From NCBI GenBank assembly GCA_027604185.1, contig JADGKB010000065.1, positions 1-64,000 of the forward strand: a stretch of 64,000 bases of DNA, in the 5' to 3' direction. The position numbers and the translations under genes are program-made. The DNA is from Boothiomyces macroporosus. Lineage: Eukaryota; Chytridiomycota; Chytridiomycetes; Rhizophydiales; Terramycetaceae. The notes beneath the pieces were generated by a model that was not told the DNA's origin, did no database searches, and was given only the letters and a program-made list of their open reading frames with translations. Positions within the stretch are counted from its first letter, which is position 1. Each line of letters starts with the position of its first letter. Shown here in pieces: positions 55,961 through 64,000 of this stretch.

Positions 55961-56500
55961 ATGCTTCTCCTCCTCACAGCAGTGCTAGCTCAAGACTGCC
56001 CAACTCAGTTCAATGTAAATTTAAACCAAATTATTCAAACATGCACCAACTACGAATCACAGCTAACTTTTAACAGTATACAAATAGAGCAGACTCTCAC
56101 TTTTATTGGTGCTTCATTACCGAAAATATGCACTCCATTCTGCCAGGATTACATTGCAGGGCAGCTGAAGAATTACACAAATAATCCTTGTGCTTCGGCT
56201 CAATTCAACCCGCAGTTCACTAACTTGCAAGTACTAGAGTTGATTAGCATTGCAGGACAAGTCACTTGTGTAATGAATGGGACTGCTTATTGCTTTAACC
56301 AGCAAGTCAAGGCTCTACCTTCTCTGAATTTGGATGACCCAGCAAGCATTCAACCCTTACTAGATAACCTTGTTACTCAAAAAACACTCTGTGGAAACTG
56401 TTCCACTCAACAGAATGTGCTGTTGAAACAGAGAAATGAAACTGGGATTGTCGGGCAGCTTGTTAATATCCTAACGAATGCAATCACTTCGATATGCTAA
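55961..56500 (+). CDS. Secreted Cys-rich protein
   Basis: A single exon of 179 residues. The start MLLLLTAVLAQ is a short signal peptide. The mature part has ten Cys, some paired as in CTPFC and CGNCS, and at least four N-glycosylation sites (NYT, NGT, NCS, NET). No known domain is recognised. It resembles the small secreted Cys-rich proteins common in parasitic and saprotrophic fungi. The frame is open upstream, but the ATG beginning the signal peptide is the natural start. Confidence 0.75.
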   Translation: MLLLLTAVLAQDCPTQFNVNLNQIIQTCTNYESQLTFNSIQIEQTLTFIGASLPKICTPFCQDYIAGQLKNYTNNPCASAQFNPQFTNLQVLELISIAGQVTCVMNGTAYCFNQQVKALPSLNLDDPASIQPLLDNLVTQKTLCGNCSTQQNVLLKQRNETGIVGQLVNILTNAITSIC

Positions 56501-56740: not shown

Positions 56741-59700
56741 ATGAATTCAACAAGTCAATTATCAGACACACCCTTAATTGATGCAACAGTAATACTCTTT
56801 ATTCCATTCATCTCAATCCCAGCATTAATCATCTCTTTTCGTCTGTTCAAGTATTTCTACCGCCTATACAAAGCCCGACTTTATGGAATTGGAAACGCCA
56901 AAGAACTCTTACAAAATCCATTAACGCAATTAGGCTTGGGCAGAGAAGAAATTGCTATTCGTAAAGAAAACAGAAAGATTTTGAAAACGCAGTTGAAGCT
57001 GGAATTAAAAAACAAGATTCAGAAACAAGAGAGTGATTCGCTGCTTGGTAGGCAGGTTATAGCTGCTGAACAGTACTTTGAAATCTTGAAAACTCAGTCA
57101 ATGAAAACCTGGTATGATTTGCTATCACCAACAGCAGTCAGGACCTATTTGGAGACTTCCAAATATGCAAGATGGTGGATGTTTTTACAACTCACTGTTA
57201 CCATTCTATCAATTGGCAACTACATTACTTTGACTTACATGACCAATTCTAATGATACGAATGGACAAAGTATCATTAAAACAATGGATATGATTTACCC
57301 AATAGTGTTTTGCTTAGACTATGCCCTCGGCTTTTACATTTCAGACGATAAACTAAAGTTTTACTACAGCCCATTGGCGCTAATCAGTCTCCTCTCAATT
57401 GTAACACCATACGTGAATTTGTTTGCCGAGACTCCAACAAAGTACGTTTGGCTACTGGGATTCATTCGAATATTTAGAGCAATCAGGCTACTTAAAATCT
57501 ATGAATTGCTAAGTTATACTCAAACGGAAACTTCTAAACAGCTGACATTATTTGCACTCAATTTCTTTTGTTTTATCTTCTTTTCCAGTAATTACAACTG
57601 ATATTAGCTTCTATTATTAACGCTACGGAAGCCCTAAATTTTGCCATTGAATCTGCGTCAATGAAGTACTGGCATGACGCGCTGTACTATATCATTGAAG
57701 AATTCAGGTAAATTGAATTTATGCTAGTGGTACGAGCTGCGACCTTGTTCCTACAAATACCATTTCAAGAAGTGTCATGATGGTACTCATCCTCGTTGCA
57801 ATGACTTACATTCCATGGCATGTTTTTAAAATTATTGATTTGTTCAATAGCAAGAACAAGTTTCAACGAAACCCGTTCAAACCTAAACGCAGAAAGTCGC
57901 ATGTTCTAGTGACTGGCTACTTTGATTACAATGCCTTTCTGTTGTTTGCAAAGGTAACCAGTTCCTAAAGAGACCTTTTTTACTTTTGATTCTGAAAGTA
58001 GTATTGTACTGTTATTTGATCAACCTCCAGAATTGAATGTCCGACATTTGCTTGCTAATCCACTGTACCAATCTAGAATCAAGTATATACAAGGAAACCC
58101 ATTAAACTTCCTTGATTTACAAAGATCTGTTATTCAAAGAGCAACAGCGCTGTTTCTGGTGGGAAAAGTTCATGAACAAAACACTGGTTTATTTGGTTCA
58201 CCAGAAACAAAGCTGTTGCAAATGGCAATGTTTATAAAACGAAACTATCCTGGGCTACAGATATTTTCACTCGTGGATTTTATCAAATCCAAAAGTATTT
58301 GCAAAGATTATGGAGTCGAAATCGTGGTTTGTGTAAACCAAATCAAAGCAGAATTAGCTGCTTTGAATGCTGTATATCCTGGTGTGCAATGTTTACTAAC
58401 AAATCTATTCCAACCAATAACAAAGATTGGTTTCGTGAGTTCGGCTGAAAAATGGATCAAAGAATATCAATGTGGAGCAGCTAATCAAGTGCATGTCATC
58501 AAAGTACCACTCGGCCTTGTTGGAATGGAGTATATTGAACTGGTCAAAGAGTTTTACCGATCCAGAAATATAATGGTAATTGGTAAAATGGAAAACCTAA
58601 AGTACAATTCCAGAGTTGGCCAATCTACTATTCTCAAGGAAGATGATTCAATATATTGTATTACTGATGAATCTGAAGAAGCATTGATTCAAGTTGGACT
58701 GGAATATGAAGATCCATTTGTTCCAAACAAACATGTCTATCACGTAATTGACGAAATTGAAAAAACCGCCAATATAAGCAGTGAAAAAAATGCAAAGCTC
58801 GATGTAAAGAATGATCCATTCAACATGTCCACTTTCAACTCTATTCCTGATACATTGGAGAATCATATTGTGCTTGCTGGGAATTTAAACGTGGAAATAA
58901 TCACAATATTCGTTCATAAACTACGATTGGTATCTCCTTTTATACCTGTGGTCATTGTATACAATCATCAGACGAAAACTAACAAAAAATGGGATGGCAT
59001 ACTGGGAAATAGAAACGTCTTTGTTATAAGTGGGCATTTAAGTGTTGAAATGACAATGGATAGAGTATCATTGAATAGCTGCAAGAAACTGGTACTTTAT
59101 TCAGAATCAAGCGATCCAGAAACGATTTATCTCATCAAAGTACTTTACAATCTTTACCCAAATATTGAAATGAACATCGAACTGTACGACGGCTCAGCAT
59201 TAAAATACTTTGAAAGTAATAATTGGGAAAACGATATTGAACATATAAAGACAAAAACACTGGTCAATACATGCTCGTTAAACTTGAGCGAAAGAAAATC
59301 ATACTATCAATCCACAAGGAACAGAGTCAAGAGCAAAAGCGTGACTGCCAATTTGCTTGCATTCTTTTTTACTAGGCAATCTTTGGGGAAAAATGATTCT
59401 AAATTGGATCAACAAGCTGATGTAACCGACATATACTTGAACCGAATGAATAATTTGAACAGCTATGATGAAATTAGTAAATGTTCCTTGTACCAACTAG
59501 AGTCTACTTTTGCTTCTGGTAAGGTATTCACCAGCACATTTCCGGCTGCCTTCTTGGCGCACGCATATTTTAAACCGTATATAACCCAAGTCTTTCAAGG
59601 TCTAATGGCTGAACTGCATTTATTGGATATTGATCATGTTTGTGTTGGGAAGCCATTTATTGATCTATTTGAAAAGCTGCTGTCAAAAGGATATCTTGCT

Positions 59701-59811
59701 CTTGGTCTCTATAGATTCAATAATAATTCAAGCTATGTTTACACCAACTGTCGCAAAGGGGATATAGTTAGCTCCAAAGACAGAGTGTATGTACTACGAG
59801 TGGATAAATAA
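56741..59811 (+). CDS. BK/Slo-like potassium-channel homolog with altered filter (channel 1)
   Basis: Four exons (introns 57588-57607, 57708-57727, 57954-57972; 20, 20 and 19 nt) give 1,003 residues. An N-terminal span (about 12-36) resembles the BK S0 segment. S1-S4 follow, S4 carrying Arg repeats (FIRIFRAIRLLK), then S5, pore, S6 and a long RCK-type cytosolic tail (YIQGNPLNFLDL, then EYQCGAANQVHVI). Where BK has TVGYGD, this protein reads FSGTSCDLVP, so the GYG filter is gone and the loop is one residue shorter. No Asp-rich calcium bowl is seen. It may be non-selective, silent or regulatory. The second intron splits the filter codons, and the frame allows no alternative that would restore GYG. 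Confidence 0.85.
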
Positions 59812-59855
59812 AAAGTACTAATTCCAATATTTTCCTTGTAAATCCTATTTTTTTC

Positions 59856-59867
59856 TTTGACGCGTAA
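59856..59867 (+). promoter_or_regulatory. TTTGACGCGTAA box before channel 2
   Basis: Exact match to the 12-mer before channel 1, ending two bases before the ATG at 59870 in both genes. Conservation at this position while the surrounding spacers differ suggests selection. Confidence 0.5.
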
Positions 59868-59869
59868 GT

Positions 59870-62800
59870 ATGTCTACACCTCAAGAGAACACTGACGAGC
59901 CTTTCATTGATGCAACAGTAGTCTTGATCTTTCCATTTGTTTTCATTCCAACCACGATTATTGCATTCCGGTTGATAAAGTACTTTTACCGTCTATACTT
60001 GGCAAAGCTATACGGGATAGGTAATAAAATATAACCCAAGCGAATGCGAATGAATTGCTACAAAATCCGCTTGCGCATTTAGGAATTGGAAAGCAGGATA
60101 CAACTTTTACCAAAGAAATACGTCGAATTCAGAAAACTAGACTCAAATTGGAGTTGGAGAATCAGAAGCGAAAACAAGAGAATGATACATTGTTGGGGAA
60201 AGGAAAACCACTTGCAGCTCCGATAATGGCTGCTGAACAGTACTTTGAGGTCTTGAAATCGCACTCAATGAAGACTTGGTACGAAATCCTGTCACCATCT
60301 GCTATCCGTAAATCTCTTGAAACTTCACACTATGCTAGATGGTGGATGTTTGTGCAACTAGTAGTTACAATTTTATCAATCGGAAATTATGTTAGCTTGA
60401 CGTATCTGGCAAATACGACAGATATCAATGATCAAAACATCATCAAAACGCTGGATATGATTTATTCCTCAATATTCTTTGTTGACTATATCCTCGCTTT
60501 CTATATATCAGAAGACAAGCTAAAGTTCTACTGCACGCTAATGTCACTGATTGATTTGCTATCTATTGTGACTCCATACATTTACCTGTTTGTTGTAAGC
60601 CCAACCAAATTCGTATGGTTCATTGGATTTGTCAGAGTTTTCAGAGCAGTGCGTATATTAAAGATTTACAGAATCCTAAGTTTTGCGCAAACAGAAACTA
60701 CAAGGGAACTGACAGTGTTTGCACTAAACTTTTTTACATTTATATTTTTTTCTAGTAATATTGATTAACATAGCGTCTTTGATAAATGCCACTGAAGCGT
60801 TGGATTTTGGGCAAGCAGCACCGACAATGAAAAACTGGCACGACGCACTGTATTTCATTATCGGAACGTTTAGGTACTCTCTTCTAATCTAGCACTACCG
60901 GGTCGGACTTGGTTCCCACTTCAACTGTATCCAGAGTAATTGTCATGGTGCTGATTATTATGGCAATCGTCTATATTCCATGGCAAACGTCAAAAATTAT
61001 TGAAGTGTTCAACAGTCAGAATATCTTTCAGCGAAGTACGTTCAAAGCAAAAGACAATACGAGTCATATAGTAATTACTGGAGAAATCAATTACAGCATC
61101 ATTATTCATTTTGCCAGAGTAACTTTACCTAATATCAGCAATTCTTTTTGTTTGATGACGACAGCTCCATTGTAATATTGGCAGACAAGCCTCCTACTTT
61201 GGATGTTCGAAAATTGCTTAACCAGCCTCTGTACAGGTCCAGACTGCATTATTTGCAGGGGGACAGTTTCTCCTTTTCTGATTTAACCAGGGCTCAAGTA
61301 GAAAATGCATCTGCTTTCTTTATACTGCAAGATACTGGCAAATTGGATAAAAATCGGTCAATCAACGTTGATGATGCGAAAACACTGCAGTTAGCAATGT
61401 TTATCAAATCCAGATTTACTGGACTTTCAATTTTTGCCCAAGTATTTGATAAAAAGACTCTGCAATTATGTTCAAACAGTGGAATCGAGAGAGTGTGCTG
61501 TATCCACGAAATCAAAGCCGGTTTGACCGGATTAAATTGCCTTCAAGAAGGTTCTCAGACACTGGTGATGAATATTGTTCAAACATTCAAGGATTACGAG
61601 TCTGTTTATGCCAACGAACGATGGATCAAAGAATATCAATGTGGAATGTCAAATCAAGTACAACCCCTCAAAACCCCATCAGGTTTACATGGTGTAAAAT
61701 TCAAAGACGCAGTAAAGGAGATCTTTGCTAATTTCAATACCATAGTGATTGCGTTAAAGAGTGAAACCCCAGGGGATGCTTCTGCTAGAATTCAGTTCAA
61801 TCCTAGCAAAGACTATCGCTTAAAGGACGATGATGTACTATTTTGTTTGGGAGAAGTCAGCGATGAAAATCTGCTTCGAATGCAATTGTACTATGAACAG
61901 ACTTACAAAAAGCAAGAATTACAAATCATTGATTTGGAATCCGAAATGGAAAAGAAAGCCGTAGTACCTCTTGTAAATATTAAAAGCAAGATTTTGAATT
62001 CCAAATTCCAAGAGTTTGATTTCCACTCAGAGAACCTGCCAGTGTTGGAAAATCACATTGTTGTTTCTGGGCAAGTTAATTCATCGATTCTGTATTCCTT
62101 TATACACCACTTGCGTTCAAGCAAGTCCAGTGAATCCGAGACTCCAGTAATAATCGTCTATGAAGGACTAGACGAAAACGATACGATCTTTTGGGAAAAT
62201 ATAATCAAGCTTAGCAACGTTTATCTCTTAACTGGACATTTATGCTTTGATACAATAACTCAAAAAGCGAATTTGACAAAGTGTAAGAAGCTAGTGTTGT
62301 TTTCGGAATCTACTGATTCCCAAACGATTTATCTGGTAAAACTCTTGAAGAGCAAATTCCAAGACATCAAATTGATGGTTGAACTATACGATGGTGCCGC
62401 CACCAAATACTTTATAAACAATATTTGGGAAAACGACTTTGAACACTTGAAAACCAAAACGATAGTCGACAACTGCTCGTTAAACGTAAGCGAAAGAATT
62501 TCATACTACAACTCTTCAAGATCAGAATCAAACAACCAAAACACAGTTTCTCAAGTGCTAAAGTTCTTTTTTACAAAAGAATCTTTGAAGCAAGACGACG
62601 AGATTAACTTGATTGACAACCAGAGAGAAAAAAAGATTGAAACGGGTGTGACAGACATGTACCTCCAGAAAATCACCAATATGAATAATGTGGACGAGAT
62701 ACAGAATGCTAATCATTACCAGATTGAATATGCCTTTGCAACTGGGTCAATCTCGACCGGAACGTTTTGTTACCCACTCTTATCACACTGCTACTTTAAG

Positions 62801-63034
62801 CCGTACTTGATTGAGATAGTGCACGGGCTGATTGACAATATACAGCTGCTGGAACTGAAAAGCGAGTCGATTGGAATTACATACCACGAGTTAGTGGACA
62901 ACTTGCTTGAAGTTGGATATATACCGCTCGGGCTTTTACGATTCAATAATGATAGTAGCTATGTATACACAAACTGCAGAAAAGGTGATATTGTATGCCA
63001 GAATGACAAAGTTTATGTCTTGCAACTATCATAA
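59870..63034 (+). CDS. BK/Slo-like potassium-channel homolog with altered filter (channel 2)
   Basis: Five exons (introns 60021-60040, 60755-60773, 60874-60892, 61119-61138) give 1,028 residues. It is the tandem paralog of channel 1, with the same S0-S6 and RCK layout and with two middle exons of exactly the same size (100 and 226 nt). S4 reads FVRVFRAVRILK. The pore reads FSTTGSDLVP, keeping the first Thr-Thr-Gly of a K+ filter but with Ser in place of Tyr-Gly. The extra intron at 60021 is absent from channel 1. The start at 59870 is set by that splice, which yields MSTPQENTDEPFIDATVV, matching the channel 1 N-terminus. Confidence 0.85.
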
Positions 63035-63063: not shown

Positions 63064-64000
63064 TTACCAGTCATAGTCAAATCTCTCCAACTGTTCCAGG
63101 TTAAGATTGACATCCTTTTGAACTTTTTTGCGCATGTAAAATATTGGACAGTCCTGAGAGGTGCATAATACTTCTTGTACTAGAGAGCCTTGACAAGCTT
63201 GGCATTGAGTCCACAGCTGAGCATACTTTTTACTGTTTTCATCAAACTGGTGTACTGTTTTCGTGTATAATTCAGGCAAGCGGTCTTGACAATGATCACA
63301 GACTGCCTTGTTGTTTTTTAACGGAGATTTACATCCTAAACAAGTTGCGCTTTTGATTGCAAATTTCATCAACGCACCGCTAGTTGGTGCAGCAACAGAT
63401 ACAGTACGTGTATGGTTTCCAACTACATTAAGTAAAAGTACCTAGCAAGGTGTGTGCTTTTTCTCCCATCACTGGTTCAAAGATACGCATCAATGGTTTG
63501 GAAAGCTGGTTGTCCAGATAGTATTTGGTATCGATGGGCAAATTGTTTTCAAGCACATAGATTGGATCTTCAGCTTTTTCATACGCAGCCGCACTTTTAG
63601 TTCCTTTAATAATTACATAGGATACACGATCACCAATAGCTGGAGCAGAACCAGCATCTCTTTTACGCATTCTTTCAGCTAATTCATTGTGCGCTTGTTT
63701 GGCGGCATACTCTTGTTTTCCTAATGCTTTGGAAATTACCAACAATGATAAATCAACCTTGTTTTGCAGTAAATCAGCGATTGTTTCTTTTACGTATTCA
63801 ACAGCACCATCTCTGTCACGATCAATCAACAGCTTGCGCAAACAAGTTTCAATGACAATCGAAACCAGTCTACAACTATCTCTTCGAACAGTTTCAATAC
63901 CTTTGGCATCCATTTTGTCATGTTTATCTGGTTTGGTCCAGTATAATCCGGCATATCTCTTTTTGTTGATCAGCAGGTATGGGAAGTAAACCTTTTCAAA
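63064..64000 (-). CDS. POLD1: DNA polymerase delta catalytic subunit, C-terminal part
   Basis: The gene runs off the right edge; 305 C-terminal residues are present. The upstream part reads [12 protein letters not shown] and [11 protein letters not shown], polymerase B-family thumb motifs. A 19-nt intron (63423-63441) restores [13 protein letters not shown]. Two Cys clusters follow: CysA (CLGCKSP, then CDHC; zinc, PCNA binding) and CysB (CQACQG, then [14 protein letters not shown]; a 4Fe-4S site that binds the accessory subunit). The C-terminus ends QLERFDYDW. This is the main lagging-strand replicative polymerase. Identification is firm. Confidence 0.95.

Follow-up and report, generated by a model that had tools for sequence, protein, structure and literature searches.

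Tandem Slo/BK-Type Genes in the Window

The DNA examined, called the window here, comprises positions 1–64,000 of the forward strand of contig JADGKB010000065.1 from Boothiomyces macroporosus (Rhizophydiales; GCA_027604185.1). It carries a tandem pair of complete Slo/BK-type genes, a and b, whose features are collected in Table 1. The gene models were obtained by manual splicing together with a small custom codon-score splice finder, which was trained on the long open reading frames of the analysed loci, genes a and b included. All seven introns of the two genes are 19–20 nt long and have the form GTA...AG. A preliminary description had reported two tandem BK-type genes, which is borne out by the intact readings and their Slo-type Pfam domains; the span given for them, 57588..60905, covers neither gene in full. 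The public model of gene a has a pore junction identical to that of the manual model, and that of gene b, from which S5 and the pore helix are missing, resumes at TTGSDLVP.

Table 1. Positions of the two genes, their introns, and their altered filters in the window.
Feature	Position	Strand	Description and basis
Gene a (C65a; public model HK103_006235 = P0004)	56741..59811	+	Slo/BK-type, 1003 aa, 4 exons; gene model, public protein, Pfam
Gene a intron 1	57588..57607	+	20 nt, phase 1, in S5 (FFST); gene model
Gene a pore intron	57708..57727	+	20 nt, splits the Ser codon immediately before the filter; same junction in P0004
Gene a altered filter, 3' of the junction	57728..57752	+	(S)GTSC-DLVP; alignment
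Gene a intron 3	57954..57972	+	19 nt, in RCK1; gene model
Gene b (C65b; public model HK103_006236 = P0001)	59870..63034	+	Slo/BK-type, 1028 aa, 5 exons
Gene b intron 1	60021..60040	+	20 nt; gene model
Gene b intron 2	60755..60773	+	19 nt; same protein position as gene a intron 1
Gene b pore intron	60874..60892	+	19 nt; same codon as the gene a pore intron
Gene b altered filter, 3' of the junction	60893..60917	+	(S)TTGS-DLVP; alignment
Gene b intron 4	61119..61138	+	20 nt, in RCK1; gene model
Gene b PF03493 match	61490-61756	+	Pfam

Domain Composition and Ca2+ Sites

PF22614, in two stretches each, and PF03493 scored over the cut-off in P0002, P0003, and P0004, and PF00520 did so in P0002 and in the exons of genes a and b, remaining slightly below the cut-off in P0003 and P0004 (23.2 and 23.4 versus 25 bits). 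The earlier statement that S0–S6 and the RCK tails are kept was thus confirmed by Pfam, with S0 recognized by eye only. Slo1 and Slo2.2 were the top sequence and structure matches, and the gene b orthologue of Terramyces matched Slo1 structures by sequence with an E-value of about 6e-30. A predicted model of this orthologue (mean pLDDT 63) superimposed on Slo structures with a TM-score of about 0.4 and an rmsd of about 19, a poor model from which only the overall Slo match was used; as its pore loop scored below 50, it is too unsure for judging the filter. With Slo1/BK (KCa1.1) and Slo2 the pair has in common the S1–S4 voltage-sensor-like part, the pore domain, and two RCK domains, and it is a variant within the known Slo/BK family. 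It differs from Slo1/BK in lacking the K+ filter and in the residues discussed below.

Human BK numbering was read from the alignment with the Slo match. D367 and E535, which we take to be the RCK1 Ca2+ site acids of human BK, correspond to a retained D in the pair and to a Q in both genes, respectively; the Q is also present in the sister clade that bears a GFG filter. No Ca2+ bowl-like run of at least five acidic residues was found in C65a, C65b, C26, C27, C119, C49, or C28. Because of the Q at the E535 position and the missing acidic run, Ca2+ gating of the pair appears doubtful.

The Altered Filter and Alternative Pore Junctions

The K+ filter is the part of K+ channels that hardly changes. 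The filter loops of genes a and b read IIEEFSGTSCDLVP and IIGTFSTTGSDLVP, so that SGTSC-D and STTGS-D stand in place of the STVGYGD of K+ channels, and TVG[YF]G is absent from both. When aligned with the nearest K+-type paralogue, located on contig C26 (FSTIGFGDL), both loops were one residue short (FSTTG-SDL in gene b, FSGTS-CDL in gene a). The loss of GYG in both copies, the missing residue, and the intron inside the pore loop had all been noted before, and the gene models and alignment uphold each of these points.

Alternative junctions of the types GT/GC/AT...AG/AC with a length of 15–60 nt were enumerated. Eight stop-free in-frame pore junctions were obtained for gene a and nine for gene b, two of each being GT-AG, and none of them restored T-x-G-[YF]-G; one GT-AC junction in gene b yielded the string GTGSD with a shortened pore helix. 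Splicing that restores GYG, the outcome against which the preliminary description had asked for a check, is therefore ruled out for the junctions enumerated. An artefact of the gene model or assembly might be suspected, given an intron inside the loop and a public gene b model that is wrong around S5, yet we consider it extremely improbable: no enumerated GT-AG junction restores GxG, similar filters occur in Terramyces, a different genome, and the same splice finder recovered GFG in C26 and GYG in C28 and C49. The latter genes also answer the earlier proposal to search the genome for a paralogue with a K+ filter, as both GFG- and GYG-bearing BK genes were found; away from the pore, the C27, C49, and C28 models are approximate.

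Ancestry of the Pair

The C26 paralogue carries the K+-type filter STIGFGD and is identical to gene b at 19/25 positions in S5 and 22/32 in S6. In a tree built without the filter columns, the pair and the GFG-bearing C26, P0005, and P0006 formed one clade (support 100/99), within which the four pair members from Boothiomyces and Terramyces were united (99/97). After removal of the two longest outgroups, support was 99/96 for the pair, 100/100 for the pair with the GFG channels, 89/83 for the GFG channels alone, and 100/98 for the SGLST clade described below. P0029 was left out of the trees, P0001, P0004, P0008, P0011, and P0033 out of the alignment, and P0029 and P0033, whose pores are mis-modelled or missing, out of the counts of readable filters. 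Since the nearest paralogue keeps a K+-type filter, the altered state is derived, and since the pair is one clade and all four members share the missing residue, the filter was most simply lost once, before the duplication.

Conservation in Terramyces

Terramyces carries both genes under the consecutive locus numbers HDV01_003133 and HDV01_003134, the contig having an identical length for the two, with the filters SGTTC-D (a orthologue) and STAGS-D (b orthologue). Two stable filter types, ST[TA]GS-D and SGT[ST]C-D, are thus present in both genera. The pore segments of Boothiomyces and Terramyces were identical at 19/21 (a) and 20/21 (b) positions, S1–S4 at 108/127 and 120/127, and S5 at 24/25 and 25/25, whereas the RCK domains were only 49–75% identical (RCK1, 152/256 and 191/263; RCK2, 154/314 and 243/324). 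The basic residues of S4 were mostly retained in the pair. As a pore that serves no purpose should drift, this pattern argues that the pair is under upkeep and not in decay; because the pore is kept about as well as S1–S4 and S5, its conservation is a sign of constraint on the membrane part and not of conduction as such. In the GFG sister, the pore segments of C26 and P0005 were 22/22 identical, slightly above the pair.

Relaxed constraint leading towards decay would fit the longer branches of the pair, above all that of gene a, but this is a very improbable explanation in view of the intact frames and of the genes and filters kept in a second genus. The preliminary description had taken loss in both copies as a sign of changed function instead of decay; upkeep is strengthened by the presence of both genes and filters in Terramyces, but the two copies do not provide double evidence, as they belong to one clade. 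Gene a has evolved faster than gene b, and its filter is the more drastic. This drastic filter, together with the presence in the same genome of a GFG-bearing closest paralogue that is alike throughout, would also suit non-conducting regulatory subunits that co-assemble with C26 or among themselves, thereby tuning or silencing the channel. We regard such a role as unlikely, since the pore loops are 19/21 and 20/21 identical between the genera and no Terramyces orthologue of C26 was present among 6 matches, which does not imply its absence from that genome.

Proposed Function and Comparison with Known Channels

We infer, as an about evenly balanced judgement, that the pair consists of RCK-gated, voltage-sensing cation channels that are no longer K+ selective. 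Genes a and b encode intact Slo/BK-type subunits with voltage-sensor-like S1–S4, a pore domain, and two RCK domains. Their common ancestor, a sister of the GFG-bearing C26 channel, most simply lost one residue and GxG once before being duplicated, with both copies retained in Boothiomyces and Terramyces. Tetramer formation and the re-entrant pore loop would be preserved, with opening by voltage and the RCK gating ring. Because the shortened filter could not provide the series of carbonyl K+ sites, cations (Na+, possibly divalents) would pass without K+ preference, through homomers or a/b heteromers.

Several known channels resemble the pair in part, and among them NirBac and CNG channels serve as precedents for a K+-channel scaffold without K+ selectivity. 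NirBac proteins are of the bacterial Kir type, without RCK domains or a voltage sensor, and the CNG filter is two residues shorter. Unlike NirBac, the pair has Pfam matches to the models for Slo RCK and Ion_trans, and no match to a Kir model was found in P0002, P0003, or P0004 at E <= 0.01. NirBac1.1 and 1.2, in which the Kir fold persists around replaced filters, were measured to be non-selective, and NirBac2.1, which that report did not characterise, has the filter TTGTD, nearly that of gene b (TTGSD) (PMC4607889). In one study of Kv-like and CNBD channels, animal CNG channels (TIGE) were called the sole clade-level exception in the filter, with plant CNGC named as a further case beyond that study (PMC7576140). 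Like the pair, animal CNG channels show a clade-level filter change on a K+-channel scaffold; unlike it, they are gated by cyclic nucleotides, and no Pfam match to a cyclic-nucleotide-binding domain was found in P0002, P0003, or P0004 at E <= 0.01. For protozoan homologues of K+ channels that have GYX filters, a lack of selectivity or of function is described as a possibility; GY is kept in these filters, and the KCa2/3-like members have IQ motifs instead of RCK domains (PMC3283738).

CASTOR/POLLUX/DMI1 channels belong to a different family, to which P0002 gave only a weak, sub-threshold match (PF06241, E 0.00096); they share with the pair the RCK domains and the absence of TVGYG. As CASTOR, a plant nuclear channel, is Ca2+ selective, with an RCK ring and an aspartate in its filter AD(S/A)GNHA (PMC6697748), divalent selectivity might be considered for the pair as well. 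The D that follows the filter is retained in both a and b, and the pore helix of gene a and of its Terramyces orthologue has a Glu at the fourth residue ahead of the filter. Such selectivity seems improbable, as that D is also present in K+ channels and the filter itself has no acidic residue.

A pore that still prefers K+ through another filter chemistry, such as the one glycine per loop of Trk/Ktr/HKT, is quite unlikely. T-x-G is kept in gene b, and in TrkG/TrkH the one conserved glycine per loop corresponds to the first G of GYG (PMC9898762); the presumed second and third loops of E. coli TrkH read, by eye, AIGGFSTHD and TTAGFTTD. Gene a, however, lacks a glycine where the first one of the filter would stand. 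A profile of SSTSGLST, the motif of the separate clade and not of the pair, did not single out the TrkH filter loops, and a Trk/HKT-like filter was not supported by sequence: the best TrkH match (11.0 bits; as high a score in 21/2000 shuffles) sits, by reading, immediately N-terminal to the glycine of the first filter loop, scores for the second and third loops were 1.1 and -1.2 bits, and non-filter stretches of C28 and Platysulcus reached up to 9.3. PF02386 had no match in the Boothiomyces genome at E <= 0.001. The loss of K+ selectivity remains the reading that we prefer for the pair.

A Separate Clade with an SGLST Filter

Outside the window, the same genome holds two further filter-altered BK genes on other contigs. 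They belong to a separate fungal BK clade with relatives in Chytridiomycota, Blastocladiomycota, and Kickxellomycota, in which the filter is mostly STSGLST in place of STVGYG; the stretch is highly conserved (P0007, a near copy of C119, P0018, and P0029 were left out of the entropy count). A single origin of all altered filters (the pair, the SGLST clade, and Gigaspora; 29 rows versus 8) was rejected, with lnL lower by 80.3 and a p-AU of 9.9e-42, a value that is valid if the group is named before the tree, whereas this group was defined by the filter with the tree already seen. Long branches that meet, C49/C28 and P0020 among them, call for further caution with this test.

Given the persistence of the altered filter in a related genus and the different replacement loop of a separate branch, the BK architecture seems to have been put to a use other than K+-selective conduction. 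We put at not quite an even chance the broader proposal of an old BK class of early-diverging fungi with an (S)STSGLST filter and an independent second conversion in the Boothiomyces/Terramyces pair, both Ca2+/voltage-gated and not K+ selective. Among the matches listed, nothing was found on these proteins in the open-access literature on chytrid BK or K+ channels. If true, a stable, clade-wide replacement of the BK filter, made at least twice among early-diverging fungi, would amount to a natural experiment on the requirements for K+ selectivity in a tetrameric pore, with the GFG sister C26 as a ready control for the pair. It would point to a class of channels in zoosporic fungi that has gone unrecognised. 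The altered channels would be the fungal counterparts of the CNG and NirBac conversions and a candidate molecular basis for the Ca2+-activated non-selective currents of fungi.

A predicted model of the Spizellomyces SGLST protein P0013 (mean pLDDT 71), which like the Terramyces model says nothing on ion sites, showed S5, a pore helix (286–299), a loop (301–304 below 50), and S6 (310–340), and Slo1 was its top structure match.

Structure and Altered Filters of the Tandem Genes

The 15.2-Mb genome of Boothiomyces macroporosus (Chytridiomycota, Rhizophydiales, Terramycetaceae, by taxonomy look-up) comprises 216 contigs, among them C65 (81,320 bases), which carries two tandem Slo/BK-type genes, a and b, corresponding to public proteins. 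The pore of gene a reads WHDALYYIIEEF-SGTSC-DLVP and that of gene b WHDALYFIIGTF-STTGS-DLVP, whereas in the alignment with a and b, that of C26, a paralogue named by its contig, reads WHDSLYYIMVTF-STIGFG-DLTP. The loss of GYG and the one-residue shortening that the preliminary description had reported in both copies are therefore real (SGTSC-D and STTGS-D against STIGFGD), and parsimony suggests that the absence of the residue and of GxG is derived. A different exon junction giving GYG was sought on the DNA, and none of the GT-AG junctions tried restored the motif in a or b. Gene a and its orthologue carry a pore-helix Glu (IIEEFSG and IIEIFSG) at what we take, from an alignment by eye, to be the position where Kir and KcsA have their P-loop glutamate.

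Features of the pair and its neighbourhood in the window
Feature	Position	Strand	Remarks
ORF, small secreted-looking Cys-containing protein	55962-56500	+	precedes the pair; no Pfam hit at E <= 0.01
Gene a (HK103_006235, P0004)	56741-59811		complete
Gene b (HK103_006236, P0001)	59870-63034		complete
ORF next to the polymerase gene	63064-63441	-	by eye resembles polymerase C-terminal Cys-rich part
Family B DNA polymerase gene, part	63428-64000	-	PF00136, E 3e-55; continues past the window end

The introns of a and b are 19-20 nt long, and those of the paralogues, as modelled, mostly 18-22 nt. The pore intron, described earlier as lying exactly in the loop, does interrupt the Ser codon preceding the filter in both genes, but in C26 it falls between M and V of YYIMVTF, a few codons further upstream, and thus there is no single fixed intron place in the loop. 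Short introns of C26 (L034), C27 (L033), a and b cluster around the pore helix, a few codons apart and differing in codon and phase, as if by intron sliding or repeated gain. In the public model HK103_006236, RELTV, the end of the S4-S5 stretch, is joined straight to the filter, with the pore helix and the greater part of S5 left out, an error that very short introns may explain.

Ordinary Filters and the SGLST Clade

A search of the genome for the BK domain (PF03493) gave eight matches, which we count as seven genes, two C28 matches being pieces of one gene. The GYG-bearing paralogue whose search had been proposed was found: C49 and C28 have GYG and C26 has GFG, while a, b, C27 and C119 are altered. 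Since the other K+-channel-like genes C158, C16 and C41 also have GYG or GFG, ordinary filters coexist with altered ones in this organism. C27 (L033, + strand) and C119 (L035, - strand) carry TSGLST and belong to the SGLST clade, a separate fungal BK group in which a TSGLST-type loop mostly replaces TVGYG. The entire altered pore of C119 lies within a single exon, which removes the splicing doubt for this filter type.

Searches seeded with C119 (E <= 1e-3 and E <= 1e-20, pooled) yielded 30 distinct proteins (P0007-P0036), counts that are no census, about 8,000 candidates having been scored in each. TVG[YF]GD was present in three (P0019, P0020 and P0036). Among the remaining 27, exact SGLST occurred in 18 and variants in six, five by script (P0017, NGMDV; P0022, SGLNT; P0023, NGLDT; P0031, TGLST; P0032, SGQNA) and one by eye (P0015, SGLAT); P0018, a BK-type protein of Gigaspora rosea, has TVGYLSD, and P0029 and P0033 lack a readable pore. 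None of the 25 readable pores contained [TS]xG[YF]G (24 by script, with x = V, I, A or L; P0015 by eye). By taxonomy look-up, SGLST proteins occur in three phyla, Chytridiomycota (Spizellomyces, Quaeritorhiza), Blastocladiomycota (Paraphysoderma) and Kickxellomycota (Dispira), to which we presume that Batrachochytrium, Globomyces and others, Allomyces, and Dimargaris, respectively, also belong. Across 23 sequences, the six TSGLST columns had a mean entropy of 0.55 bits, as low as only 4 of 363 six-column windows within S5-RCK1 (TSGLST itself counted), and the glycine was present in all 23.

In a tree of 37 rows (P0029 omitted), built from 361 columns after exclusion of the filter, the pair formed one clade (99/97) and joined the GFG group (100/99), and the SGLST group with Gigaspora stood apart from the pair (97/99). 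Because a single grouping of all 29 altered rows was rejected (p-AU 9.9e-42, with the altered group defined by its filter, the tree already known, and long branches that may meet), at least two filter conversions would have occurred. The Gigaspora TVGYLSD, whose long branch makes its position inside the SGLST group unsure, could be a transitional form linking TVGYGD with the SGLST type, or a third change of its own.

Conservation, Gating Sites and Proposed Function of the Pair

With gene b as query, a database search returned six proteins: the two of the pair, two with STIGFGD, and two from Terramyces sp. JEL0728, HDV01_003134 (STAGS-D) and HDV01_003133 (SGTTC-D), whose locus numbers are consecutive. 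Identities between Boothiomyces and Terramyces, for a and b respectively, were 108/127 and 120/127 in S1-S4, 24/25 and 25/25 in S5, 19/21 and 20/21 in the pore segment, 24/32 and 28/32 in S6, 152/256 and 191/263 in RCK1, and 154/314 and 243/324 in RCK2; the pore segments of C26 and P0005, of the GFG type, were identical (22/22). The high identities in the membrane part speak for its upkeep, altered filter included. The preliminary description had argued for a changed function and not decay; upkeep is borne out by the intact genes and the pore kept in Terramyces, and a changed function is what we infer.

The basic residues of S4 are mostly retained in the pair, with E replacing R near the S4 end of gene a in both genera. 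At the positions of D367 and E535 (numbering read from the human BK chain), which we take to be the RCK1 Ca2+ site acids of human BK, the pair has D and Q, the Q being shared with its GFG sister clade. SGLST rows with letters at these positions retain both D and E, and Gigaspora neither. Thus, Ca2+ gating via RCK1 appears more likely in the SGLST channels than in the pair. None of the seven Boothiomyces BK-type proteins, not even those with GYG, contained an acidic run of at least five residues; such runs are present in seven SGLST rows, by eye away from the Ca2+ bowl place.

The genes of the pair are intact, and their derived filter is under upkeep. The proteins would assemble as tetrameric pores gated by RCK and voltage, and would conduct cations without K+ preference, as suggested by the retained scaffold and pore loop and by analogy with channels of changed filter: NirBac1.1 and NirBac1.2, measured as non-selective (excerpt of PMC4607889), and CNG channels, known as non-selective on a K+-channel scaffold (excerpt of PMC7576140). 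The weak Ca2+ site, together with pore-loop conservation not above that of S1-S5, would count against non-selective conduction, and a and b are possibly subunits without conduction of their own. We favour RCK-gated, voltage-sensing cation channels without K+ selectivity. In the literature searched in part, no title or abstract opening on filter-altered BK channels in fungi was found; in the available sections of a survey of human-pathogenic fungi, "KCa" appears only in the query-sequence list, BK included (PMC3410928), and excerpts of further related work are PMC3283738, PMC6697748, PMC9898762, PMC12264004, PMC11515996, PMC4749565, PMC4714889 and PMC6987127. The closest published match found to TTGSD of gene b was TTGTD of NirBac2.1, a channel known by sequence only (excerpt of PMC4607889).
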